Positions 5,758-38,131 of a stretch of DNA of 38,135 bases are shown one piece after another. How positions within the stretch are numbered: position 1 is the first letter of the stretch; the number at the start of each line of letters is the position of its first letter. The position numbers were made by a program, and so were the translations under genes. Source of the stretch: a virus; the IMG/VR virus record IMGVR_UViG_3300025131_000151, positions 1-38,135 of that record; one strand, written 5' to 3'. The notes below the pieces were generated by a model. That model did no database searches. It was not told where the DNA came from and saw only the letters and a program-made list of their open reading frames with translations.

Positions 5758-7614
5758 CTAAGTTATCTCACAAGAGCCTCCGGAACATGCTAACTCGCCA
5801 GATAAGTTTGTGTCATCGTCTAACTCTACAATCTTTTTCAAGTCGACATCTTGCAGCGCCTCGAAAAGCACTTGGTACTTCTCCGGCGAACAGTCTTCGA
5901 AGGGTGCCTGTATGTAACTACCGCCGTCAGAAGGGAGAACACTGAGGCCGTTATAGTAATCTCTATTTTCCCACATCCATTCTCCGACATCAGTCCATTC
6001 ACTATCGCGAATCGAGACAGTCGCAGATACATTGTGCGTATTTTGTCCACTTCTGTGGCCAAACTTTATCCACTGGTTTGACACTTCCTTCAGTCTACGA
6101 AGCAGCTGCAATGCACTTTCCTGTCTCGTGATCGCTCCATCAGGTGCCTTCTGTGGCACACCGATAACAGCTGTATCGTGCGGTCTGAAGTATTCGTCTT
6201 CTATCAGCTCAGGGTGATTTATATAAAGATATAGATATATCGACTCATTCTTACCAACCCTTAGCCGTCGGATGTAATGCTCATTATGCCACGCGTGGAT
6301 ACCAGAACTAGTCCCCAAAGTTAGCGATGTTGTACCAGCAGGCTTTACACACGTGGTTCTAGCTGCTTGTCTCACACCAATGAGGTTGGCAACTCTCTTA
6401 TTCTCTTCTTTAACAACTTTCGCAGCAGACTTCATGTCCAAATCTAAAACTCTTCCGGACGCGATCCCCGTCATCGAGACTCCGATGAGCGCGTCTTTCT
6501 CTGTATTTCTTTTCCATATGTCTCTGAGATAATGAAAATCTGTATACCCTGCTTGTAAAGTTGCGATAAAAGAGGCGGCACGTGTGCGTGCTTCATATTC
6601 TTCTTGTGATTCTACATCTGACACGTTAACCTCTGACAGATTGCAGAACTGGTAAGGCCTTAGCGCTATCTCACAACAAGGGTTTGTTCCCCAGTCTTTA
6701 TCGTTTGTAAAATAGAATCCGGGCTCACCTGAACCGCTGATTTTTACCCTTTCCCAAATCTCGTCAAAGAATTCTTTAGTAATAAGATGTCTCATTAAGA
6801 CAACAGAATTGTTGGCCCGTCCTCTTTGCGGGTTTGCCTCCCACCAATTTGCTGTCTTCGCTGCCAACATTTCTTTATCGTTGGCTGAAAACAACGATAT
6901 AAGAGCAGCGCGGCGAATGCCCCCGGCAAGAACAGCATCAGCAATATAACAAATAATGTCATGAACTTCGATAGGCTCAAGCTTATCTCCTTCTTCTTTC
7001 TCACAAAGAATTCCATCGACCTTCAGAAGGCACTCCTTCAAAGGCTGTGGGCCGGGAGCTTTGCCCCCGCTAGTAACTAGTGTGCTTCCTTTCGCACGGA
7101 TATCAGAAAAGTCAAATTTTATCTTCGATCCGCCTTTAAAGTAGGATCGCACCAAGACTTTTACTGAATCTGACCAACCCTCAATAGAGTCACCTATCAA
7201 ATATCTTCTAGTTCTCTTTGAGTTTGGCTTTCTAATTTCCGGTAATTTTTCTACGTGGTGACCTTGGACAGAAAACCCGACACCAGTTCCCCCAAGTAAG
7301 AGAAACATGCACTCACTAAAAGCATCGACATGATCAATAGGCATAAAGGCACAATTATAAATCCTGTTAGGTGCCACTTCAATCGGCTTCCCACCGAACT
7401 GCATTGATCGCATAGAGGGTAGGACTTTCTTTTCGTAGACATATTTATAATTTTCCTCGATCTCTCCTTTGAGATCTGGGTACTTCTTAATGTGCATTTT
7501 CTTGTTTCGTGTAACTAGTTCTTTCCAGGTCTCTCTCCTTTTTTTGTTTGGGAGGTACCTCGCGTATTTCATATGCACGGTTATGTCGGATAGGATCTTG
7601 TTGGATAGTAACAT
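5758..7614 (-). CDS. nrdJ: Class II (adenosylcobalamin-dependent) ribonucleotide reductase
   Basis: Reduces ribonucleotides to deoxyribonucleotides for phage DNA synthesis. Recognisable landmarks are RIYNCAF with the first redox cysteine at 88, NPCCEIAL with the radical cysteine at 313 and glutamate at 315, the paired redox cysteine at 324 (FCNLSEVN), KPAGTTS in the barrel, and a C-terminal swinging-arm pair C610/C615 (CxxxxC) near the end of the 618-residue chain. The pattern matches the monomeric cobalamin-dependent enzyme. The Lactobacillus enzyme is over 700 residues, so this is a compact version. The residue after the radical cysteine is Cys where Gly is usual. AAGGA lies 8 nt before the ATG, and the gene lies 10 nt after the helicase stop. 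Confidence 0.93.
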   Translation of the reverse strand: MLLSNKILSDITVHMKYARYLPNKKRRETWKELVTRNKKMHIKKYPDLKGEIEENYKYVYEKKVLPSMRSMQFGGKPIEVAPNRIYNCAFMPIDHVDAFSECMFLLLGGTGVGFSVQGHHVEKLPEIRKPNSKRTRRYLIGDSIEGWSDSVKVLVRSYFKGGSKIKFDFSDIRAKGSTLVTSGGKAPGPQPLKECLLKVDGILCEKEEGDKLEPIEVHDIICYIADAVLAGGIRRAALISLFSANDKEMLAAKTANWWEANPQRGRANNSVVLMRHLITKEFFDEIWERVKISGSGEPGFYFTNDKDWGTNPCCEIALRPYQFCNLSEVNVSDVESQEEYEARTRAASFIATLQAGYTDFHYLRDIWKRNTEKDALIGVSMTGIASGRVLDLDMKSAAKVVKEENKRVANLIGVRQAARTTCVKPAGTTSLTLGTSSGIHAWHNEHYIRRLRVGKNESIYLYLYINHPELIEDEYFRPHDTAVIGVPQKAPDGAITRQESALQLLRRLKEVSNQWIKFGHRSGQNTHNVSATVSIRDSEWTDVGEWMWENRDYYNGLSVLPSDGGSYIQAPFEDCSPEKYQVLFEALQDVDLKKIVELDDDTNLSGELACSGGSCEIT

Positions 7615-7624
7615 TTATTTTTCC

Positions 7625-8977
7625 TTATTTGTTTTGTCTGTGTTTCTTATATTTCTCTCTCAGGGAAGCAGCAAGGTCACCTGGCGTCGCAGGCTCAAGC
7701 TTCGGCGCTTCGGCGTCAGCTAAAACCTTTAGTTGCACCGTGCTAGTGTCAATAAACATCGGAAAAACCAAGCCATCGGGCCCGATTCTATTCTTTGCAA
7801 TGAAAAGCCTGGCTGTATTAGCGTTTTTGTCTTTAATTGTTCTAGAAATGGAACAGATGAAGTCTGCCACAAAACACTTGTTAAAGGCTTCTGATATCGA
7901 TTCCATTGTAACGACTTCTGCATTTAATCCTGTTCTATTAGTTTGCGATGCTGTCCACAAAGGACATTTGTTTTCCTGAGCAATTGCACGGAGATCTTCA
8001 TAAATAGAACCGAGTTCATCTCTTTTCTCTCTAAAGTTTGAAGTGGGTCTTAGCAAATCAGCGTAATCCACTATAATCATATCGATTTTTTGATTTCTCT
8101 TTTTTAATTTTTCTATGTGGCTTTTTAACGTATTGCAGCTAGCCGTCTTAGTTGGGTACTCTTTTATAATCAGACTACCTTCCAAATCACTGATACTCTC
8201 AAGCACCTCCTCCTTTCTGGCGAATAGTGTGGAAAGTGGAACGGAACTTAAGCAACTATCATATCTTTGTCCTGTCACAGCTTCAGAAAGCTCCAGGGTG
8301 TAGTGTACCACATTCTTGCCTGCCTTGACGGCATGCGCGCCCAAGTGAGCTAGAGCCATGGACTTGCCGGCGCCTGTCGGAGCAATGACCACACCTAGCT
8401 CTCCGGAGCCTAGGCCTTTCTTCATAATGCTATCAACTTTTGGCCAGCCGGTTGTAATTGGGCCGCGAGCTTTAATCTCGTACCTCAGCTCAAAGTCTTT
8501 TAAAAATTCATGACCGAAGTTATTGTCGGTGCCTAGATTTAGGGCATTATCGATTACGCGTCGAACTTCGTCATAAGACGAATTCTGTATTAGATCAACC
8601 GAAGTCATTAGAGCTTCTTTAAGCTTTTGCTTTTTGCAGAAATCTAAAGAAGTTTCTCTAATATATTTTTCGTCCTGCACACTGCTGATACAAATTCTAG
8701 CAAAATAGTCTCTTACCTGTTTCTGTAAAGCTTCGTTGTGGCTTTCCAGCTCTGTTCTCAGAACTGCAGCTAGGATTTTATTTGTCGGATGAACGTTGTA
8801 CTTTTTGCGATAATTAAATAATTTTGTTACGAAGACGCGCAAGTATTTTAGTTCAAAAAACGACGTATCGAGTACCTCTTCTATCTGGTCAGCGAATGGG
8901 CGATCTTCCATAATCATTTGTGCTAGAGATTCTTGAAATTGCTTTCCATACTTAGAAAAGCCAACATTGGTTTTCAT
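7625..8977 (-). CDS. Replicative DNA helicase (DnaB/gp41-like)
   Basis: Hexameric RecA-fold helicase that unwinds DNA at the fork. Numbering from the ATG at 8977 (450 aa), the N-terminal domain covers about residues 1-150. Walker A (APTGAGKS) lies at 199-206, and Walker B (IIVDYADLL) has its acidic residues at 304 and 307. A TASQTNR segment follows in the position of the H3 motif. The frame can be extended to a GTG at 9001, but AAGGA placed 7 nt before the 8977 ATG decides for the shorter form. No primase gene is visible nearby. A promoter-like site (9005-9032) lies between it and the upstream nuclease gene. Confidence 0.92.
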   Translation of the reverse strand: MKTNVGFSKYGKQFQESLAQMIMEDRPFADQIEEVLDTSFFELKYLRVFVTKLFNYRKKYNVHPTNKILAAVLRTELESHNEALQKQVRDYFARICISSVQDEKYIRETSLDFCKKQKLKEALMTSVDLIQNSSYDEVRRVIDNALNLGTDNNFGHEFLKDFELRYEIKARGPITTGWPKVDSIMKKGLGSGELGVVIAPTGAGKSMALAHLGAHAVKAGKNVVHYTLELSEAVTGQRYDSCLSSVPLSTLFARKEEVLESISDLEGSLIIKEYPTKTASCNTLKSHIEKLKKRNQKIDMIIVDYADLLRPTSNFREKRDELGSIYEDLRAIAQENKCPLWTASQTNRTGLNAEVVTMESISEAFNKCFVADFICSISRTIKDKNANTARLFIAKNRIGPDGLVFPMFIDTSTVQLKVLADAEAPKLEPATPGDLAASLREKYKKHRQNK

Positions 8978-9004
8978 GTGTGTGTCCTTATATACTACCA
9001 CTTA

Positions 9005-9032
9005 AAAATAAGAATAGTTTATCGATTGTCTA
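9005..9032 (-). promoter_or_regulatory. Promoter of the TTGAC-16-TATWTT family, ahead of helicase
   Basis: On the minus strand: TAGACA at 9032-9027, a 16-bp spacer ending in ATTCT, then TATTTT at 9010-9005. The -35 lies inside the end of the nuclease gene. It shares the exact spacing and TTCT-TATWTT core with three other sites in this window. Confidence 0.6.
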
Positions 9033-9990
9033 GAGCAATCTTGTTGAAATGCCGGAAAAGTTCAGCAAAGTTAATCTCTCCAAATCCGTCCTTCATCATC
9101 ATTTTAATTAGTTCGGTCTTGTTAAAGGTTTGATCTGGGTCTTGTAGAGTCGCATTAACCAAATTTTTAGCGTCTATACTCAGCAGCGGAGCATAAAGCT
9201 GCATCATCTGATAGTTTCTTTTCAGCTTTTCCTCAGACTCTAAAATGTTTCTGTATGCTTTGATCTCGCTGTTTTCTAATTCTTTTTTACAGTGAGTTAG
9301 AACATCAGAAAAGGTCTTGGTCTTTTCTTCTTTTAAGAATGGGAACCTTCGCGAAATAGTCTTCAAGCCTACACCGGGGATCCCCTCAATGTTATCAGAC
9401 TTATCTCCAGCCATTGCACGCGCCATGGCGAAATTTGTAGGATGAATCTCAAACTTATCAACGATATTTTTCTTGTTTAAGATTTCTTTCTGAATTGGCC
9501 TGTATAAAACAGTCTTGTTGTCAAGAAGCTGGAAAAAGTCCTTGTCACTCGATAGAATTATCTTGTCATAGTCTTGTAAGAACTTATGTTGCGCAACATA
9601 CGCAATAATATCGTCAGCTTCCGTCGACTCAAACATGAACTGAATAACAGGAATCTGGTTATAGTAATCAACCAATCTGGATTGTTGCCAAATCTTGTTG
9701 TCAGCCTCTTCATCGTCTGACATATTTCTAATCGCACGGTTCAGCCTGATTGGCTTTCTTCCGGCCTTGTAATCTTTCTTGATTAACTTTCTCTTTTTGG
9801 ATCCACCCGCGCCATCCCAACAAATAATGATCATATCGGGCTTTGACTCTCTAACGACTTTCTGCAAACTTTGTATGCAACCTCGCAGGCCTCCGATCGG
9901 CGCGCCGTCGGTAGACATACTGGGGTTGACAATGTAGTTGCGAAAGAAAAGATTTAGCTGATCAACAATTAAAACTCTTTTACCTGACAA
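9019..9990 (-). CDS. 5'-3' exonuclease / flap endonuclease (T4 RNase H-like)
   Basis: Metal-dependent FEN-family nuclease, expected to remove RNA primers or flaps behind the fork. Aspartate D10 lies in VDQLNLFFR, followed by EADDII (124-129), SSDKDFFQLL (147-156) and the helix-three-turn-helix region GDKSDN (195-200) plus GIPGVGLKT (203-211). The start codon is TTG at 9990, supported by AGAGG 5 nt upstream and by the need for the N-terminal strand with D10; the next Met is at residue 25. At 323 aa it is close to T4 RNase H in size. It fits a role as the separate 5'-nuclease partner of the short polymerase at 14746-15915, which lacks this domain. Confidence 0.9.
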   Translation of the reverse strand: MSGKRVLIVDQLNLFFRNYIVNPSMSTDGAPIGGLRGCIQSLQKVVRESKPDMIIICWDGAGGSKKRKLIKKDYKAGRKPIRLNRAIRNMSDDEEADNKIWQQSRLVDYYNQIPVIQFMFESTEADDIIAYVAQHKFLQDYDKIILSSDKDFFQLLDNKTVLYRPIQKEILNKKNIVDKFEIHPTNFAMARAMAGDKSDNIEGIPGVGLKTISRRFPFLKEEKTKTFSDVLTHCKKELENSEIKAYRNILESEEKLKRNYQMMQLYAPLLSIDAKNLVNATLQDPDQTFNKTELIKMMMKDGFGEINFAELFRHFNKIALDNR

Positions 9991-10851: not shown

Positions 10852-11994
10852 CTATTCAGCGTCAGAATCAACGTCGTAAAAGTCTTCAGCCTTTCCTTCT
10901 TTGTTTTCAAACCTCATAATGATTTCCTCATCCATGAGTTGCATGACACGGGCTCTAAATTTCTCATTTTTCAGTTTTTCAGTCCATCCGGACGCTTGAA
11001 ATTTCTCTGTTGTACCGTCTTCGTGCACTAGACTGTACCAAGCTCCTGAGCTTTGCAAAGAATCTGAAATCTTTACTGCCTCAAACCAACTTTCTTCGTC
11101 TTGGATGCATGCATCTTCTGAACCCCAAAGAATCTTAAACGTGCATTGCCGGCCTTGAGTGCCAAACCTACTCTTTTTCAAAGTAACCTTGACCTCAGAG
11201 CCGACCCTAAAGCCATTTTCGTCAGTAACAAAAGAAGCCTTAGCTTTCCTAGATGTCAACCACATTCTTAACGAGTAAGTATAAGGCAGCGACTTGCCGC
11301 CGGGCGTGAACCACGGGGTTGTCATTGCTTCCGCAACGTTACTTGTAATGTTGGTTTTTAATTGGTTTAACACCAGAAGGGTAGATTGCGTGTTTGCGAT
11401 AGGCTGTGTCAGTTTTTGTACGCCTTTCGACAAAATTCTAGGCTTTACGGCCATTGAGGATTGTGGGTTGAAGTCTCCTGCGATATCAGTCTCACATGGA
11501 GTTTGTGCAACAGAGTCCCAAACAAAAAGCATAGAGTTTTCATTTGTTCCAAGCATCTCTTCAATAGTTTCCAGAACAGTTTCGACACTGTGTGCCTGTG
11601 TATACAAAAACCACCCCATGCCTTCTGGAGGCTCTTCCTCCAAACAACAACCGACTCTTTCTAAAAACACACTATCAATAGCAGATTCTGAGTCAAAATA
11701 AACTACGTCGATTCCCATTTTTTGAGCGTTAGCTGCAATTTGCGCGGCCATGTAAGATTTACCAGTGCTTTCTTGGCCCGCAATTTCAACAACTTTGCCC
11801 ATAGGAACACCAGCTAGTTTGCCTTTGCAGACAATACTGTCTAGCCAGCGAGACCCCGTAGGAATCCACTTTCGTACATCAGTTGGGTTTTCGCCTGCTA
11901 GCGAATACGCAATCTCTGTACCGGCCTTTTTGTTAACCAAGTTCCTCATCTCTTTGAGGTTTAGTCTTCCTAGTTTATTTGCTTTCTTTGCCAT
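10852..11994 (-). CDS. uvsX: RecA/UvsX-like recombinase
   Basis: Strand-exchange ATPase used for recombination-dependent replication and repair. Walker A is GQESTGKS at residues 73-80, with a LFVWD Walker B strand at 156-160. A FDSES segment (100-104) and TPWFTPGGK near 225-235 match the RecA/UvsX DNA-binding loop region. The length of 380 aa lies between RecA and T4 UvsX (391). The acidic C-terminus (EDFYDVDSDAE) resembles the regulatory tails of these recombinases. AAGGA lies 7 nt before the ATG, overlapping the stop region of the isomerase gene. Confidence 0.93.
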   Translation of the reverse strand: MAKKANKLGRLNLKEMRNLVNKKAGTEIAYSLAGENPTDVRKWIPTGSRWLDSIVCKGKLAGVPMGKVVEIAGQESTGKSYMAAQIAANAQKMGIDVVYFDSESAIDSVFLERVGCCLEEEPPEGMGWFLYTQAHSVETVLETIEEMLGTNENSMLFVWDSVAQTPCETDIAGDFNPQSSMAVKPRILSKGVQKLTQPIANTQSTLLVLNQLKTNITSNVAEAMTTPWFTPGGKSLPYTYSLRMWLTSRKAKASFVTDENGFRVGSEVKVTLKKSRFGTQGRQCTFKILWGSEDACIQDEESWFEAVKISDSLQSSGAWYSLVHEDGTTEKFQASGWTEKLKNEKFRARVMQLMDEEIIMRFENKEGKAEDFYDVDSDAE

Positions 11995-13080: not shown

Positions 13081-13830
13081 CTATGAACCCAAAAGCTCTG
13101 CAAAAGCCTGATCGACATTGCTGCTAGGAGCAGCACTTTGATACTTGTTGGTCTCTGTTGAGACATCTTCTGCATCTTCTTCACCCAATAGATACTCATC
13201 TAGCATCTGTTGAATCTCGCTTGGCGTCTTACGAGCGGACTCGAAAACGTCATCGAAGCTTGGGATTGAATCAAGCATAACAGCTGCCTTGTCAGCGTTC
13301 TCTGCCAACGGCGAAGACTTACGTCGTGGGACGATCGTCGTCTGAGGGAACTGAGCACCCGGCGGCTTGCCATAGTTGATTACCAAGTCAGTGCCTTGGT
13401 CAACATCTGTGATATCACCGTAGTCCGGATTAAGCACAAGGTTCAAAAGCTCCTTGTAGGCCGTCTTTCCAAAGCCCCAGATACGGACGCCTTCCTCTTC
13501 TTGGCCTCGAACGAGAACCGGCGAAAAGAAACGTTGACGTGCGCTAAGGTCCTTAGCCATCTTGACACTCTCGTCAGAACCCTCCTTGTACAGCTGACGT
13601 ACAAAGTCATTGAGTGGATCATCCTCTCCAAAGTTCTTCTTCGGGCTCAAAAACCCAGGATTCTTTCCTAAGTTATAATGAAACCAAAACTCTTTGAACG
13701 GATCTCCGTCAGAAGTTGGTAGAATACGGATAACCGTCTCTCCATCATCTGGACGCCAGAAAGCGTTCTTCCCTCCGCGATTTTCTAAGGCATCGCGCTT
13801 CGCCTTCATTTTTGCTAAATCAATACTCAT
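13081..13830 (-). CDS. Single-stranded DNA-binding protein, gp32-like, lacking zinc cysteines
   Basis: Binds ssDNA at the fork and should cooperate with the UvsX-like recombinase and helicase. The pattern matches gp32: a basic N-terminus (LAKMKAKRD), AFWRPDDGETVIRILPT, an FWFHY segment, and a negatively charged C-terminal third (EYLLGEEDAEDVSTE) ending in DQAFAELLGS. T4 gp32 binds zinc with one His and three Cys. Here H51 remains, but the positions expected to hold cysteine carry S62, D71 and N74. The 249-aa length compares with 301 in T4. AGGAG lies upstream of the ATG, and a 7-bp hairpin sits in the leader. Confidence 0.88.
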   Translation of the reverse strand: MSIDLAKMKAKRDALENRGGKNAFWRPDDGETVIRILPTSDGDPFKEFWFHYNLGKNPGFLSPKKNFGEDDPLNDFVRQLYKEGSDESVKMAKDLSARQRFFSPVLVRGQEEEGVRIWGFGKTAYKELLNLVLNPDYGDITDVDQGTDLVINYGKPPGAQFPQTTIVPRRKSSPLAENADKAAVMLDSIPSFDDVFESARKTPSEIQQMLDEYLLGEEDAEDVSTETNKYQSAAPSSNVDQAFAELLGS

Positions 13831-13895: not shown

Positions 13896-13923
13896 AAAAT
13901 AAGAACAAAATTTTAAGAGTCAA
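13896..13923 (-). promoter_or_regulatory. Promoter of the TTGAC-16-TATWTT family, ahead of SSB
   Basis: On the minus strand: TTGACT at 13923-13918, a 16-bp spacer ending in TTTGTTCT, then TATTTT at 13901-13896. It overlaps the last codons of the tubulin-like gene. Confidence 0.65.
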
Positions 13924-14749
13924 GGTTTTGTTCTTGAATTAGTGACGCATACTGGACGACATAAGCGTAGTTTTGTTCGTAATCCGTAGAATATATTGCG
14001 AAGCATGCGGTACATTTTTCCTCTGACTTGTCTTTAACGTAAGATCTTATCTTCTGGAGTAAATCTCTTTCCTCGTTTAGAGTTTTTTCTGTTACTCCAA
14101 AGAAATATTTTTTTAAGCGTGGCTTTTGCAGGTCATAGAAAATCTTCTCATCTAAATTGTTGAAAGCAACAACTCCAAATGTTGCGATTCTGCTGGTTTC
14201 TTTTGGGTCGGCCAGGGTCGAAAGAAGAGGCTCGGTGTTGTCAAACACATTTAGCATGTGATAGGTGCTTGAGATTATTGTGTTTAGGTTTTTCCAGTAG
14301 TCTACGATAGAAACATTATCTAATACCGACTCGGCAACCGCGTTTGAAACCACAAATAATCTAGATAACAAGTTTGACCTCGCATACTCCTGCAAAACAC
14401 CAAAAACCATGTTCTCTCTTAGCACAACATCTTCGCGCGCTGTCGACATGTCAGGTCTGATATATAGCACAGTTAGCTTGTGGTCTTTTAATTGTTCCAA
14501 GAGTCTCAACAAGATTCCGCTTATATTTCCAGAACCAGTTGTTATCAAGGTCGTTTCACCTATGATGCTCTGTGTGTTAATTTGTTTGTAGGCGGCCTCG
14601 TAATCCTCGTGTGTCTCTTGCCGCTCCACTTTGAAAAAGTTTTCACGGCCTTCTTTGTCGGTGTCGATAAAATATGTTTTATACTGAGGGTATATTTCAA
14701 AATGTTTGGCCAGGCTGCAGCCGGCACCGCCTAAGCCTATTACATTCAT
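13913..14749 (-). CDS. Divergent tubulin/FtsZ-like GTPase homologue
   Basis: A 278-residue protein whose order of motifs follows FtsZ. A glycine-rich first loop (GLGGAGCSLAKHF, 5-17) is followed by strand and turn FIDTD (27-31). Next come a strand plus glycine loop TTGSGNISG (70-78) in the place of the tubulin signature GGGTGTG, then TVLYIRPD (93-100), a helix, FVVSNAVAE (132-140), and VDYWKNLN (149-156) at the start of the central helix. The catalytic T7-loop residues of FtsZ are not evident, so GTP hydrolysis or ordinary polymerisation may be lost. The alternative is another dinucleotide-fold protein. Its ATG overlaps the stop of the polymerase gene (ATGA), and the SSB gene follows, placing it in the replication cluster. 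Confidence 0.6.
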   Translation of the reverse strand: MNVIGLGGAGCSLAKHFEIYPQYKTYFIDTDKEGRENFFKVERQETHEDYEAAYKQINTQSIIGETTLITTGSGNISGILLRLLEQLKDHKLTVLYIRPDMSTAREDVVLRENMVFGVLQEYARSNLLSRLFVVSNAVAESVLDNVSIVDYWKNLNTIISSTYHMLNVFDNTEPLLSTLADPKETSRIATFGVVAFNNLDEKIFYDLQKPRLKKYFFGVTEKTLNEERDLLQKIRSYVKDKSEEKCTACFAIYSTDYEQNYAYVVQYASLIQEQNLDS

Positions 14750-15922: not shown

Positions 15923-17242
15923 TCATTTAGTGTTTCCGGTACCGGTTATAGCATAGTTTACCGAAGAAGGTTCTAACACGATTTTCATCGCTTCGACTTT
16001 TCTTTGCTCGTATTCTTTCTCGGTTATCCCATGCCAATAGGCACCTTTACTAAGAAAGTTAGTAACCTCGTGACCCTTTGTCAAGTCATTTATGTGTTTT
16101 AGCGCTGTATCAATATCAAAAAGTCTGTACCGGGACACGACTTTTTTAGCATGCGAATCAAAAAAAGCTATATCTTGATTTTCTCCTGTCTCGGCTAAGC
16201 GGAGCTTAAGCAGAAGCTTGAGCCAGTACTCGTCTTCTTCTTTTGTTTCTAATATCATTGGCGGTGGCTCCCTGTCTTTTCTTTCGCTGGTCAGCTTAAC
16301 TGCGTTGCAACGACCGGTGCTATCCGTAATATATTTTAATGACTCATACGTGTTAAACTGTAGATAAAAAGATTGATAAAGGGAGTAAAATTTATTTTTT
16401 AAATTTGAATATTCGTCTAAATAAGCTTTGCGATAATATGTTTCAAAAATGTTTTCATAGCTGACCGCGGACCGGTCCATATAAAGTTGCCCTCCCGTTA
16501 GGCGCCCTTCGTCTTTTTTGTCTTTCAGCCCGGAGGCTAGGTTGAACACCAGTCTCCATGGGGCGTTTTTGTCTACCATAAAACCAAATTTCTTTACCTC
16601 ATTAACAAAAAAAGCAAAACTTTGATCATTTACATAATCTAGAATCCTAGCATTGTTTTGTAAACCATGGCTTTCCTCAGCTACTTCAATCATTAATCCA
16701 GACACAAAAGGAGAACAGTGCAGAGAGGTTATAAAACCAGTCTTCGTTATGGGAAAATATTCTGTTGTCCGGAGTGCAAACTTTAAAAACTCTTTTACGA
16801 ACCCCTTGTAGTTTTTAATTTTCTCGCCTCTTCTATCAACTGATAAATATGAGTCAACAAATGTTGTATATAGCTTATTTAAATACTGGTTGTACCTGTA
16901 CTCTAGATCACCATTTGACCAAGATTTAAATGCTCTAAGGTTTGTAGGGTATAGTCCATCTTTTGAGATAAAGCCACTGTTGGCTGCAGATCTTATGTTT
17001 TTTCTCAGATCTGAAAAAGCGTTGCAGACAAAGTCGACGGCGAGTTGTGTTTCCGCTGATCCTCCATGAAGCGCTTTGAGGTTGCTATCGTCTAAATAAA
17101 CCGCATCGCCGTCCTTATCTATCCTGCCGTATAGAAGATGCTTCTTGTGTAAATCAAATGTTTTCACTCCAGGAAATTGCGGGAACATATCATTTAAGTT
17201 TTGTTTTGAGTTAAAAGCTGATTCAACAATGTTTTGTGCCAT
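15923..17242 (-). CDS. Hypothetical protein, probably virion-associated
   Basis: A 439-residue soluble protein with many aromatic residues and no motif that I can assign. It has no signal peptide or membrane segment. Its start (ATG 17242) touches the stop of the 947-residue structural gene, and it ends 8 nt before the family A polymerase start, so it bridges tail and replication clusters. Its C-terminus (SSVNYAITGTGNTK) resembles termini of some tail proteins, but this is weak. Co-transcription with baseplate genes is the only argument for a virion role. Confidence 0.7.
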   Translation of the reverse strand: MAQNIVESAFNSKQNLNDMFPQFPGVKTFDLHKKHLLYGRIDKDGDAVYLDDSNLKALHGGSAETQLAVDFVCNAFSDLRKNIRSAANSGFISKDGLYPTNLRAFKSWSNGDLEYRYNQYLNKLYTTFVDSYLSVDRRGEKIKNYKGFVKEFLKFALRTTEYFPITKTGFITSLHCSPFVSGLMIEVAEESHGLQNNARILDYVNDQSFAFFVNEVKKFGFMVDKNAPWRLVFNLASGLKDKKDEGRLTGGQLYMDRSAVSYENIFETYYRKAYLDEYSNLKNKFYSLYQSFYLQFNTYESLKYITDSTGRCNAVKLTSERKDREPPPMILETKEEDEYWLKLLLKLRLAETGENQDIAFFDSHAKKVVSRYRLFDIDTALKHINDLTKGHEVTNFLSKGAYWHGITEKEYEQRKVEAMKIVLEPSSVNYAITGTGNTK

Positions 17243-32243: not shown

Positions 32244-34103
32244 TTAGCTGGTTGCGCCAGCCTCACCAAGGAGTCCACGTACAACGACAAGGCCGTACAT
32301 ATCAGGTCGAACCATCTTCTTAGCGTAACGAGTCATCACGCCCTTACGAGGCACGAAGTCCTCGGTACCGAAGATCGTCGGAGTGACCTGGAGTGGCACA
32401 TAGGGAGCGTAAACATATCCACTTTCGAGGAAGCTTCCGCCCTTACGACCAACAAGTACCAGGTTTCGCGGGAAGTAGGGGTCTACATAGACGTCCCACT
32501 TTCGAGAAACAGACCCGACATTAACGGCTCCAACTGTCCCCTTATCGGAGTCAGCGGTTACGTTAGCTCGGAACCCAGCAGTAAACTCAAGGATGTTAGC
32601 AACTTCAGGTGAGGTCACCAGGAAGTTAGCTCCACCGCGAAGAGTCTTTCTGTGGATCTGAGCCGACACGTCGTTAATAGTCTCGATAAGAGTCTCATAC
32701 CACTCACTAACCGTGCCAGTGAAGTCCGGAGCCGCTGAAAGCGCCCCAAGCTCAACACCAGTTGTCCGGTTAACGAACAACCCAGGAGAACGCGACCAGT
32801 AGTACGTACCAGCTGACGCGCCCTGGACAAGATCGTTAACAATCTCACGATCGATTTCAAGAGCGATCTGCTCAGAAAGAATCTGAGTAAGTTCGACCTC
32901 TGCATCGAGATTGTGATAAGCATTAAGATCTTGGCCAAGCTCTGGAGACCACTTGGCCTTGAGCTTCTTGGTCTGGGCAGTAACAGCGACTGAATCAACT
33001 TTAATGTCGATTTCTGCAATTACGTTCTTGCCCGTTCCGCTTCCTTCGCGGCCAGTACCAGGATCTGGCTCTTCAAGAGGCCAGTTGTCTTGACCAACGA
33101 CCGAACCGACGGCTCCGCCTGCAGCGAAGTTATCAGAGTAAGGTACGTTTAACGCATGGTTGTTGTTGCCAAGGTTTAGCGTACCCTCATCTGCAACGAA
33201 GTACAGAGTCAAGAACGTATCAGCAACAGAACCAGTAGCTAGACTACCATCTGCCTTACGGAAACCACGCTCAGTCAAACGACGAATTTGAACACCGTTG
33301 GTGAGACCAGTGGTGGCCTCGGCGTTGCTCGTGGTGGTCGTGTGAAGCGTAACGCCTCCAAGCATGTCCTTATTGATTCTAGCATGATCTGCATCAGTGA
33401 GACGACAAACTAAGTTGTAAACCTCTTTGGTGCTAGTATCACCAAGAATATCAGCATCCCAACGAATCGCTTTCTTTTGAGCTTCAGACAGCGAACTAAT
33501 CGCCGTACCTGCAGCCAAGAAAGGCGTACCATTGGTACCAGTGTTGGTAACACCGTCATGACACTCGCCCTTCGCAATTGCTCCGGGGTCATCATCAGTC
33601 GCTTCAGTTAGCGCGGTGAGCGTACCGGTAGCATGCGAGAATGCATTGGCAAGGTTGTAGAATCCGCCACCTTCCTCAGTGAGGTCTGAGACACCACCAG
33701 TAAGTTGCGAACCGACAACGCCGCCACCGTAGATCGAATCTCCGGTATCCATGCCCAATCGACCATCTTCATAAGTAAAGTCTAAGAAGAAGAGCAGACC
33801 GGAAGGAAGGCTCATCGGCTGAACGGACACAAGGTCGTTAGCCAAAAGGCCTCCAAAGACACGGCGAACAATCGGGAATGCCACGGACGCGAAGCCCTCG
33901 ACATCACCAGCTGCCATCGACGAAGCTTCCTTAAGAAGCTGCGAGGCTTGATTCTCTAGTAAGCGGGCCATTCCCGCCTTTTTTTGATCGTTGTCGATAC
34001 CCTCTAAGAGTCCGGTAGCTTCCCACTTATCAAGTAGGGCAGCACCTTCTCTTTGAAGGGATCTTTCAACGATGCCTTCAGTTAATTTTTCTAAAACAGA
34101 CAT
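32244..34103 (-). CDS. Major capsid protein, gp23-like
   Basis: A 619-residue coat protein. The N-terminal region has WEATGLLEGI and MARLLENQASQLLKEAS, then FASVAFPIVRRVFGGLLANDLVSVQPMSLPSG, the hallmark of the gp23/HK97-fold family in T4-like phages. The C-terminal VYVDPYFPRNLVLVGRKG and YAPYVPLQVTPT also match. A T4-type prohead cleavage motif (Leu-Lys-Glu, residues 59-61) sits just before ASSMAAGD; cleavage there is inference. AGGAGG lies upstream of the ATG. It is the gene with the most regular codon use in the window by eye. A terminator follows. Confidence 0.95.
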   Translation of the reverse strand: MSVLEKLTEGIVERSLQREGAALLDKWEATGLLEGIDNDQKKAGMARLLENQASQLLKEASSMAAGDVEGFASVAFPIVRRVFGGLLANDLVSVQPMSLPSGLLFFLDFTYEDGRLGMDTGDSIYGGGVVGSQLTGGVSDLTEEGGGFYNLANAFSHATGTLTALTEATDDDPGAIAKGECHDGVTNTGTNGTPFLAAGTAISSLSEAQKKAIRWDADILGDTSTKEVYNLVCRLTDADHARINKDMLGGVTLHTTTTSNAEATTGLTNGVQIRRLTERGFRKADGSLATGSVADTFLTLYFVADEGTLNLGNNNHALNVPYSDNFAAGGAVGSVVGQDNWPLEEPDPGTGREGSGTGKNVIAEIDIKVDSVAVTAQTKKLKAKWSPELGQDLNAYHNLDAEVELTQILSEQIALEIDREIVNDLVQGASAGTYYWSRSPGLFVNRTTGVELGALSAAPDFTGTVSEWYETLIETINDVSAQIHRKTLRGGANFLVTSPEVANILEFTAGFRANVTADSDKGTVGAVNVGSVSRKWDVYVDPYFPRNLVLVGRKGGSFLESGYVYAPYVPLQVTPTIFGTEDFVPRKGVMTRYAKKMVRPDMYGLVVVRGLLGEAGATS

Positions 34104-34130: not shown

Positions 34131-35261
34131 CTATTTGTCTATTCCTGCTAGGAATTTCCAACGATTTAACGTTGGGTTTTGATTTTGTCCTCCAGATTTT
34201 TGTTTTCTGGCTGACAGGATTACCGAAGAAGACTTCTGTACCGCTTCACTCAGTGAATTTGGCTGCTGTTTACGAGAGGTGCTGCCCACTGTGTTCTGAA
34301 GTGTTTCAAAAATTACTTTTGCTTCTTCAATAGTTTCGGCATTAGAGACAGCTTCGACAAGCTTTTGCTTTTGTCGCTCATTCAGGGAGTCGCTCTCTAG
34401 TGCCTTGTTCTGATAAAGAAGCTTGGCGTTAACCACGCTAGCTTTATCAAGTTTTTCTTTTAATATCTCAACTGCGTCTTTTAACTCAGCCGTAAATTTA
34501 GTCGACTTCTTTAACGCAGCTGCAAGTTTTGTGTTTTGTTTATTGGTAGACTCACTAACTGCTTGAAGATCCTGAACAGCTTTTCTCATAGCTGCTCTTT
34601 CTTCGCGTATTTTTGAATCTTGTTCTAGTGCCAACAGCTCTTCCTCTGCTAGGCGAATCTCGCCTTCTGGCATACCAGTCCAGCCGGATTTATTTGGGCC
34701 GGCTAGATCCACAGTAAGCTGTTCTTCTAATGTATCTTCGTCAGAAAGATCAGTAACTATCGATGGTTCCCCACCTTCTTCTAAGAAAAAATCATCCTCT
34801 AAAAACAACTCTTCTTCTAGATAATCATCCTCATAAAGACCCTCTTCGAGCAACTCATCATCAAAATCGATCATATTGTGCTCATAAAGTTCTGGATCTC
34901 CAACCACATCGCCATTAAATCGCAAGGCCTGTGTTAGATTTGACACCTCCTCCAGCAATTGGTCTAGCGGGATTTCTACCTGTTCGTTATTTTCTGTTGT
35001 GACAGCTAATGGAATATGCTCCATGACAGAAGACTGTTCTGTCGGCTCTAGAGGCGCCTCGCCTGTATCCGGAGAAGCCATTAAATCATCAGCTAGCTCA
35101 CCGAGACTGTCGGCAGCAGGTTCTTCCTGCTCCAAGAGGCTCTCGACGGCGCCTTTGATTTGGTTTGAATATTTCTCTAATACCAGAGTTTCGGCATTTT
35201 TTGTTGCCGCCTCTCTTAACGCTTCCGCGTCAATGATTGCTTGTTCTAACATGTCAGACAT
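34131..35261 (-). CDS. Prohead core/scaffold protein (gp22-like)
   Basis: A 376-residue acidic protein located immediately upstream of the capsid gene. Residues 1-60 and 205-330 are helical and charged. A strongly acidic block (about 130-190, with repeated LEE/DDYLEE) occupies the centre. The segment LLYQNKALESDSLNERQKQK and VSNAETIEEAKVIFETLQ near the C-terminal part is a pattern I recall from T4-like scaffold proteins. It ends RWKFLAGIDK. No prohead protease gene is seen in this window. AGGAG lies 8 nt before the ATG. Confidence 0.8.
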   Translation of the reverse strand: MSDMLEQAIIDAEALREAATKNAETLVLEKYSNQIKGAVESLLEQEEPAADSLGELADDLMASPDTGEAPLEPTEQSSVMEHIPLAVTTENNEQVEIPLDQLLEEVSNLTQALRFNGDVVGDPELYEHNMIDFDDELLEEGLYEDDYLEEELFLEDDFFLEEGGEPSIVTDLSDEDTLEEQLTVDLAGPNKSGWTGMPEGEIRLAEEELLALEQDSKIREERAAMRKAVQDLQAVSESTNKQNTKLAAALKKSTKFTAELKDAVEILKEKLDKASVVNAKLLYQNKALESDSLNERQKQKLVEAVSNAETIEEAKVIFETLQNTVGSTSRKQQPNSLSEAVQKSSSVILSARKQKSGGQNQNPTLNRWKFLAGIDK

Positions 35262-36514: not shown

Positions 36515-38131
36515 TTAAGCAACCTCAATCCACGTCTTGTCCGGATCGAAGTACACCAGTACATCACTGCTGTCGTCATCGACAGCGTACCCAACAATTC
36601 TAACAAAATCTCCTGTTCCAGACGGCGCCGTAAAGTCAAAATGGCCGGCAGTGGTCGAAACATAAACCGGCAATCCATCACACGCGCCGGATCCGGGCAA
36701 GTTCAGTATTTCTGTTGAGGGTATTTTTATAAACCCTTTCGTGTGAACCCCTACTGCTTGTGAGCCGCCGCCTAGGCCGACGCCCAGGAGTTGAGACGCG
36801 CCAGTTGCTACAGCGTCGGCGTCAGTTGAATCCCACGTTCCATCAGTGTGTAGGAAATAAATTTGGCCGGCCGTTAAAGTGTCGTTTGCGCCAGGAGAAT
36901 AAATAAGGCGCTCGCCGCCGCCCTCGCCATCAGCCAGCTGGTTTTCAAACGTTACAGCCTGGAAATTGTTGGTAACACTAAGTGCGACTTTAGGATCAAA
37001 ATCATTTATGCCTACCTTGCCGCCAATCTTTGTGGTAGTTGTAAACATGTTGCGAGTGCCACCAATATTAATATTTGAGCCAGAAAGAACCATGCCGCGG
37101 GAGGAGCCGGAAATAATTAATAGATTTTGATCGTCCTCATCGTATTCAATTGAAGCATCTTTGTTGGTGCCAAGGTGCAGCTTTTTATCATCAATAAGCC
37201 AAGCATCTTGAGAGAACATGACAGCTTCGGACGAATTCGTAGTAATAACAGTTACGTAAGCGTTTGCCTCTTCCATGATCGAAAAGGCGTTGGCAACATT
37301 GTCGGGTAGATCAATGTCGAAGCCGCCGGCCGCACCAGAAATAATCAGCTTGTCTACGCCAGCTTCGTCATATTCTACAGAAGCGTCATTGCCAGTGCCG
37401 AAATAAAGCTTTTTACCATCTTCAACACGTACGTGCTGTGACGCAGTGATAGGCGAGTTAAAATCAAAACCAGAATTGCTCAAGATGAAGGGGTCGCTAT
37501 CGGTGAACGAACCAAAGCCTGACTTTATATGAAGAGTCTCGTCTGAGCCCATATTGCCAATCGACCATTTTGAACTACCATTGCTCATGAAGGTAAACTG
37601 TGTGTCACCGTTCGCCGTGCTATTGTCAATATTGATTCTGCCGTAATCTGAATCTCCAGATTTGAAGGTGGCTATTAGTCCGTTTGTTGTATCGTCAGCA
37701 TCAGCGCTCACAAGAAGAATACCACTAGTCTTCGCGGGGGATGTGTCGACGCCAATGGAGAGCTTGTCGGTAACTCGGATCAACGAACCAGAGAGAGTTG
37801 TGCCGAAAGAAGAACCGGAAATGATGAGCATGTCTTGGCCGGCTTCGTCGTAAAAGATGCTCGCGTCGTTGTTCGAACCAAAGTAAAGGGGTAAATCATC
37901 GTTAACTCTGGCGTCATCGCCGATTACAAATGTCGTGCCGTCGTAGGTTAGATTTGCCTCCGCGTTCAGCGCGTCTGCGCCAGTTGCTGTAACTAAACGA
38001 TTATCCACGCCGTTGGTCAAGAAGTCAGAAACATCAACCGTTAGCTGTCCGCTACTCGCGTCCAAGCCGGTGCTAGCTATACCAGAAACTAAATCTGCGA
38101 TCGACTCTTGCTTTACAACGCCGGAGGGCAT
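36515..38131 (-). CDS. Tail-fibre-like protein with three repeated modules
   Basis: At least 538 residues, beta-rich and Gly/Ser/Asp-rich. Three copies of a 26-28 residue module (LYFGSNNDASIFYDEAG then LIISG) lie at about residues 81-108, 241-266 and 317-343. The C-terminal 130 residues include FVRIVGYAVDDDSSDVLVYF. The visible ATG at 38131 has only 4 bases of upstream sequence in the window and no stop codon in them, so the protein may begin further to the right. This pattern is common in marine-phage fibres. It is co-transcribed with the spike gene. Confidence 0.7.
   Translation of the reverse strand: MPSGVVKQESIADLVSGIASTGLDASSGQLTVDVSDFLTNGVDNRLVTATGADALNAEANLTYDGTTFVIGDDARVNDDLPLYFGSNNDASIFYDEAGQDMLIISGSSFGTTLSGSLIRVTDKLSIGVDTSPAKTSGILLVSADADDTTNGLIATFKSGDSDYGRINIDNSTANGDTQFTFMSNGSSKWSIGNMGSDETLHIKSGFGSFTDSDPFILSNSGFDFNSPITASQHVRVEDGKKLYFGTGNDASVEYDEAGVDKLIISGAAGGFDIDLPDNVANAFSIMEEANAYVTVITTNSSEAVMFSQDAWLIDDKKLHLGTNKDASIEYDEDDQNLLIISGSSRGMVLSGSNINIGGTRNMFTTTTKIGGKVGINDFDPKVALSVTNNFQAVTFENQLADGEGGGERLIYSPGANDTLTAGQIYFLHTDGTWDSTDADAVATGASQLLGVGLGGGSQAVGVHTKGFIKIPSTEILNLPGSGACDGLPVYVSTTAGHFDFTAPSGTGDFVRIVGYAVDDDSSDVLVYFDPDKTWIEVA
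37103..37183 (-). repeat. Fibre module copy 3
   Basis: Encodes the third module (residues 317-343: LHLGTNKDASIEYDEDD, then LIISGSS). Confidence 0.7.
37334..37411 (-). repeat. Fibre module copy 2
   Basis: Encodes the second module (residues 241-266: LYFGTGNDASVEYDEAG, then LIISG). Confidence 0.7.
37808..37891 (-). repeat. Fibre module copy 1
   Basis: Encodes the first LYFGxNxDAS-YDExGxDxLIISG module (residues 81-108). Related to copies at 37334-37411 and 37103-37183, with many synonymous differences. Confidence 0.7.

Follow-up and report, generated by a model that had tools for sequence, protein, structure and literature searches.

What does a protein resembling tubulin or FtsZ do inside the replication operon of a T4-like phage? 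Proteins with the tubulin fold are known in the form of filaments, which serve in cell division, in DNA segregation or in the positioning of a phage nucleus. Exploring a 38,135-nucleotide stretch of viral DNA (IMG/VR record IMGVR_UViG_3300025131_000151; the window hereafter), we placed the gene in question, here termed tub, on the minus strand by ORF analysis, the plus strand of the region carrying stops throughout (Table 1). The initial annotation, made from the sequence alone, had proposed a tubulin/FtsZ-like product on the basis of several motifs and had named no strand; all of the quoted motifs were found in the product. Its claim that tub is ATGA-coupled to a family A polymerase gene and followed by SSB held as well, in that the stop codon of polA shares bases with the start codon of tub (ATACTATGAATGTA) and the gp32-type SSB gene starts 82 bp downstream of tub. 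The order then runs through gp32, the FKBP-type PPIase, UvsX, a deaminase, the 5'-3' exonuclease, the DnaB-type helicase and ribonucleotide reductase. The term "non-jumbo", used in the same annotation, is not readable from a 38-kb fragment; the contigs of tub-bearing relatives reach 147-204 kb, with completeness unknown.

The window phage is T4-like, carrying gp23, tail sheath, tail tube and baseplate genes, and the closest isolates by gp23 are Flavobacterium phage immuto, Microcystis phage Mel-JY01 and Rhodothermus phage RM378. This capsid neighbourhood corresponds to Far-T4 (PMC4360716), and the text of that paper makes no mention of tubulin or FtsZ. Several other genes deserve a remark of their own. 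The window polA has only 389 aa and no detectable 3'-5' exonuclease domain; and large minus-strand ORFs at 15923-17242, 34131-35261 and 36515-38131 have no database matches of note, the first of them, a 439-aa ORF just upstream of polA, being kept in many relatives at about 22-31% identity. The FKBP-type isomerase between the gp32 gene and uvsX is unusual phage cargo, with a relative in locus L041 (9136-9711, 52% identity).

Table 1. Coordinates of tub, its segments and selected genes of the window (residue numbers refer to the tub product)
Feature	Position	Strand	Basis
tub, tubulin/FtsZ-fold protein, 278 aa	13913..14749	-	ORF call (ATG at 14749, stop ends 13913); AF2 pLDDT 93.1, pTM 0.91; fold matches
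T1-like loop, residues 4-11 (IGLGGAGC; family GLGxAGC)	14717..14740	-	conservation; hhalign pairs it with FtsZ GVGGGGGN
T4-like glycine loop, residues 72-78 (GSGNISG), degenerate	14516..14536	-	motif test
H4 end, residues 119-125 (LQEYARS), family hallmark	14375..14395	-	conservation; Q120, R124, S125 invariant
N136, position of FtsZ guanine-contact Asn	14342..14344	-	N in 87/94; spacing
H7 core helix, residues 151-170; Y151/W152, N156, HMxN (164-167)	14240..14299	-	DSSP of model; conservation
H7-S7 linker, residues 171-187, place of FtsZ T7 and H8	14189..14239	-	model; motif test
C-terminal (activation-type) domain, residues 188-270	13940..14188	-	full-length match to tubulin-superfamily structures
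polA, family A DNA polymerase, 389 aa	14746..15915	-	Pfam DNA_pol_A 1.2e-13; ATGA overlap with tub
gp32-type ssDNA-binding protein	13081..13830	-	Pfam gp32 9.8e-13; PHROG SSB 7.9e-27
FKBP-type peptidyl-prolyl isomerase, 145 aa	12005..12442	-	Pfam FKBP_C 4.7e-21
UvsX/RecA-type recombinase	10852..11994	-	Pfam RecA 2.2e-30
5'-3' exonuclease	9019..9990	-	Pfam 4.8e-27
DnaB-type replicative helicase	7625..9001	-	PHROG 2.1e-76
Ribonucleotide reductase	5758..7614	-	PHROG 3.7e-125
T4-type major capsid protein gp23	32244..34103	-	Pfam Gp23 3.6e-73

Sequence searches of Pfam, PHROGs and the PDB with 1, 3 or 27 tub sequences gave no usable match, and tblastn of the family against GenBank phages (50,697 records) returned neither a match nor PhuZ; PhuZ as a query against phage records retrieved 179 of them. 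The AF2 model, built on a 27-sequence alignment, reached pLDDT 93.1 and pTM 0.91. Foldseek against the PDB returned FtsZ or TubZ for 50 of the 50 best matches (E 3e-13 to 2e-11, 11-15% identity), and VIA-align of the model gave CetZ at Z 24.1 (257 residues), TubZ at Z 23.0 (275 residues) and FtsZ at Z 22.2, the best 50 entries scoring Z 20.9-24.1 across about 260 residues and the matches spanning residues 1-278. Independently of AF2, hhalign gave an in-register alignment with FtsZ across residues 2-165 (P 6e-4) and an alignment with PhuZ across residues 2-94 (P 9e-4); for the negative controls (reversed FtsZ, reversed PhuZ, SSB and two polymerase alignments) P was 0.033-0.26. Given that these P-values are modest, the tubulin claim is carried by the fold evidence. 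Structure prediction, Foldseek, VIA-align and hhalign all support the tubulin/FtsZ-like reading, and the two-domain fold predicted by the model, with its GTPase-type N-domain, H7 and C-terminal domain, makes tub a member of the tubulin/FtsZ superfamily.

Successive rounds of searching IMG/VR raised the number of tub relatives from 3 to 46 and finally to at least 567. The carriers are large, mostly marine T4-like phages. The family profile found nothing in four related phages, cultured or assembled (immuto, Mel-JY01, RM378 and LR756508). One apparent cellular host, a WOR-3 MAG chromosome (CP070664.1; L048, 5505-10864), was rejected: its phage replication genes sit between runs of N, indicating a scaffolding artefact and not a cellular tub. 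Phage genes in such a bacterial "chromosome" could mislead annotation.

How much of the nucleotide site persists was assessed on 94 members, non-redundant at 90%. FtsZ is marked by the GTP-binding motif GGGTG[TS]G and the hydrolysis motif NxDxx[DE] in T7 (PMC12583498); among FtsZ controls for which a sequence was retrieved, the former was present in all and the latter stood at the T7 place in nearly all. Neither motif occurred in any tub member (0/94 each), so that the degenerate glycine signature and the T7 residues described initially as not evident hold family-wide. In most members the heptad reads G[SA]Gx[IV]S[GA]; glycine stands at its fifth position in 0/94, and the H7-S7 linker of the model contains no H8 (pLDDT blocks 94-96) and no conserved acid pair. 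Alignment and model together show that tub lacks a canonical phosphate loop and a conserved T7/H8 catalytic element. The strict NxDxx[DE] was also absent in 6 of 7 PhuZ controls, whose G-box is likewise non-canonical; since PhuZ is a working GTPase that mostly fails the strict motifs, their loss is no proof that tub is inactive. In the window protein two acidic residues, D170 and E173, stand as a pair where H7 ends; across the family an acid is found at 170 in 24/94 and at 173 in 66/94, which leaves a displaced catalytic acid possible. It is unlikely, by inference and without biochemical data, that hydrolysis proceeds in trans by way of a canonical T7.

Other parts of the site are kept. In the T1-like loop, G5, L6, G7, G10 and C11 are present in 89-94 of the 94 members. 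N165 of E. coli FtsZ is a guanine contact, and the 23 residues from R113 to N136 in tub equal those from R142 to N165 in that protein, position 113 being R or K in 75/94. Guanine-contact positions, mapped by hhalign and spacing, are retained at N136 (87/94), Y151 (88/94) and N156 (90/94). The persistence of N136 and N156 suggests that guanine nucleotide may still be bound by tub; this too is inferred, in the absence of biochemical data. The residues invariant in 94/94 are G7, Y23, Q120, R124, S125 and H164.

The association with replication genes, proposed from a single operon, proved far stronger than one sequence could reveal, the gene order being invariant in every testable contig. polA lay upstream of tub in 123/123 relatives with enough upstream DNA, and gp32 downstream in 160/160 with enough downstream DNA. 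A reverse search starting from the polymerase found tub in all 72 loci of the window's clade that hold both polA and gp32; in each of them (72/72) the three genes share a strand and follow the order polA-tub-gp32. Of 142 distinct loci, 32 showed the ATGA overlap and 56 more had polA and tub adjacent; extra sequence separates the two genes in the remaining 54, indicating that the coupling is not obligatory. Inserts of about 0.8-2.5 kb occur at this position in L016, L025, L030, L032, L043-L046, L151, L152, L162 and L216. The divergence of tub follows that of polA (Mantel r 0.70, 0/999 permutations). In the sister polymerase clade (Mel-JY01, immuto, LR756508) tub was found in 0/80 loci, and a conserved 130-150-aa protein of unknown function stood between polA and gp32 in 63/63 loci holding both. 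Given that presence and absence of tub follow one split between two clades, a single evolutionary event is indicated rather than many, with the caveat that similarity searches rank close relatives first. By synteny, tub is a clade-wide core gene whose linkage is old and largely vertical. The sister-clade slot protein, present in 74/80 loci of that clade (for example L130 1346-1801, L132 4867-5256 and L133 6374-6763), had no match of note in Pfam or PHROG, and the idea that it is a fragment or relative of tub was rejected (hhalign P 0.24).

The strictest conservation falls at the ends of H4 and H7, which by topology lie off the nucleotide loops, suggesting a surface for a fixed partner; that the invariant residues of the two ends cluster in space is itself inferred from topology. 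We propose that tub is a non-hydrolysing tubulin-fold replication factor. This function is inferred, and although we prefer it to a PhuZ-like motor filament, we hold it at slightly less than even odds. In the proposed scheme guanine nucleotide would be held by N136, N156 and the aromatic 151/152, either weakly or in a structural role, there would be no polymerisation cycle driven by GTP hydrolysis, and the invariant surface formed by the ends of H4 (QEYARS) and H7 (HMxN) would grip a partner. The simplest candidate for that partner is the polymerase, to which tub is translationally coupled; the alternative is gp32. tub would then act as a replisome clamp, an adaptor or a nucleotide-gated assembly factor. 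Against this stand the lack of biochemical data and of any shown interaction with polA or gp32, and the gene adjacency may reflect operon history only. In a bolder reading, which we doubt slightly more than we believe, tub would be the first tubulin-superfamily member dedicated as a non-hydrolysing subunit to replication, in an abundant T4-like lineage, for example as a processivity or assembly factor of the exonuclease-less family A polymerase. The initial annotation had offered a divergent filament or a nucleotide sensor, both of which remain possible.

The strongest rival, which remains possible, is a cytomotive or scaffold filament of the PhuZ/TubZ kind that places or moves replicating phage DNA, either hydrolysing GTP by a displaced acid or forming a static, non-hydrolysing polymer. 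It is supported by the whole two-domain tubulin fold, C-terminal domain included, by the phage precedents TubZ and PhuZ (PMC7950403), by E/D at 173 in 66/94 members together with the D170/E173 pair of the window protein, and by the finding that hydrolysis-dead PhuZ mutants still form non-dynamic filaments (PMC7950403). However, the T7 motif and H8, which contact the nucleotide of the next subunit, are not conserved or not present, and the chain stops at about the last sheet strand without the long C-terminal helix of the PhuZ type. In addition, no BLAST-level homologue of chimallin, a companion of PhuZ that is not strictly obligatory, was detected on 10 large contigs (111-204 kb, possibly incomplete) in a search that was positive for two PhuZ-phage controls.

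A second rival, which we consider unlikely, holds that tub mimics host FtsZ and, soon after infection begins, caps or poisons the division ring; on this view the replication operon is no more than a place from which genes are expressed early. Inhibition of FtsZ by phages is known, and an FtsZ-like fold without T7 and H8 is what a one-sided capping subunit would be expected to look like; however, a host-takeover gene would not usually be tied so strictly to polA and gp32 as tub is in every testable contig, and apart from the shared fold the hhalign comparison revealed no sequence similarity to a surface of any host FtsZ. The last rival, a Rossmann dehydrogenase, ThiF-type or other nucleotide-binding protein, whose better match to the model had been named at the outset as a refutation, is all but excluded: some members weakly match TrkA_N (best 8.6e-5) and ApbA (best 2.8e-4) in HMM searches, as expected from a GxGxxG N-terminus, but the model, itself of high confidence, fits tubulin-superfamily structures from end to end, the best 50 Foldseek PDB matches are all FtsZ or TubZ, and residues 2-165 align in register with FtsZ.

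The statement that phage tubulins are known mainly from jumbo phages and plasmids needs qualification, as c-st TubZ comes from a genome of 185.7 kb (PMC7950403) and Halocynthia phage JM-2012 has 167 kb, both below 200 kb. Genome size is therefore not what is new; what is new in tub is its core status in a replication operon combined with its lost signatures. If the replication-factor reading is true, the tubulin fold has been reused as a replication part in a large family invisible to sequence tools; alternatively, tub would be a minimal filament that works directly on DNA as it replicates. The family suggests that phage tubulins are no speciality of jumbo phages and that the viral tubulin superfamily is larger than annotation implies, and, by inference, that a cytoskeletal fold may have been recruited into the replication apparatus of a virus.

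Comparison with known systems sets these features in place. PhuZ of phiKZ-type jumbo phages shares with tub a phage tubulin-superfamily fold, a non-canonical G-box and weak profile similarity across T1-T4 (P 9e-4), but there is no BLAST similarity, tub is shorter (278 aa against 312-342), and it differs in its replication-operon site, its unconserved T7 acid pair and the missing long C-terminal helix. TubZ of plasmids and phage c-st shares the fold (Z 23.0 over 275 residues), whereas tub is about 100 residues shorter than the solved chains and has replication genes as neighbours. CetZ is the best structural match and the guanine-contact positions of the CetZ/FtsZ group are kept, yet identity is about 13% and GGGTG[TS]G, NxDxx[DE] and H8 are missing. 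FtsZl1 and FtsZl2 (Makarova and Koonin 2010, PMC2875224) are, like tub, diverged superfamily members, and FtsZl1 is reported not to fit the known S6-T7 region (PMC2875224); unlike tub, however, both are cellular and occur in membrane-remodelling contexts (PMC2875224), and the C-terminal domain of FtsZl1 is reported to be unlike known ones (PMC2875224) whereas that of tub matches the superfamily. The closest viral model is A0A6J5RW92, annotated as "FtsZ Cell division GTPase" from an uncultured Caudovirales phage (TM 0.77 of query, E 4e-13), which differs in its 452 aa and 17% identity. As defined by motifs or sequence, tub stands outside FtsZ, CetZ, TubZ and PhuZ, and by fold it stands inside their superfamily.
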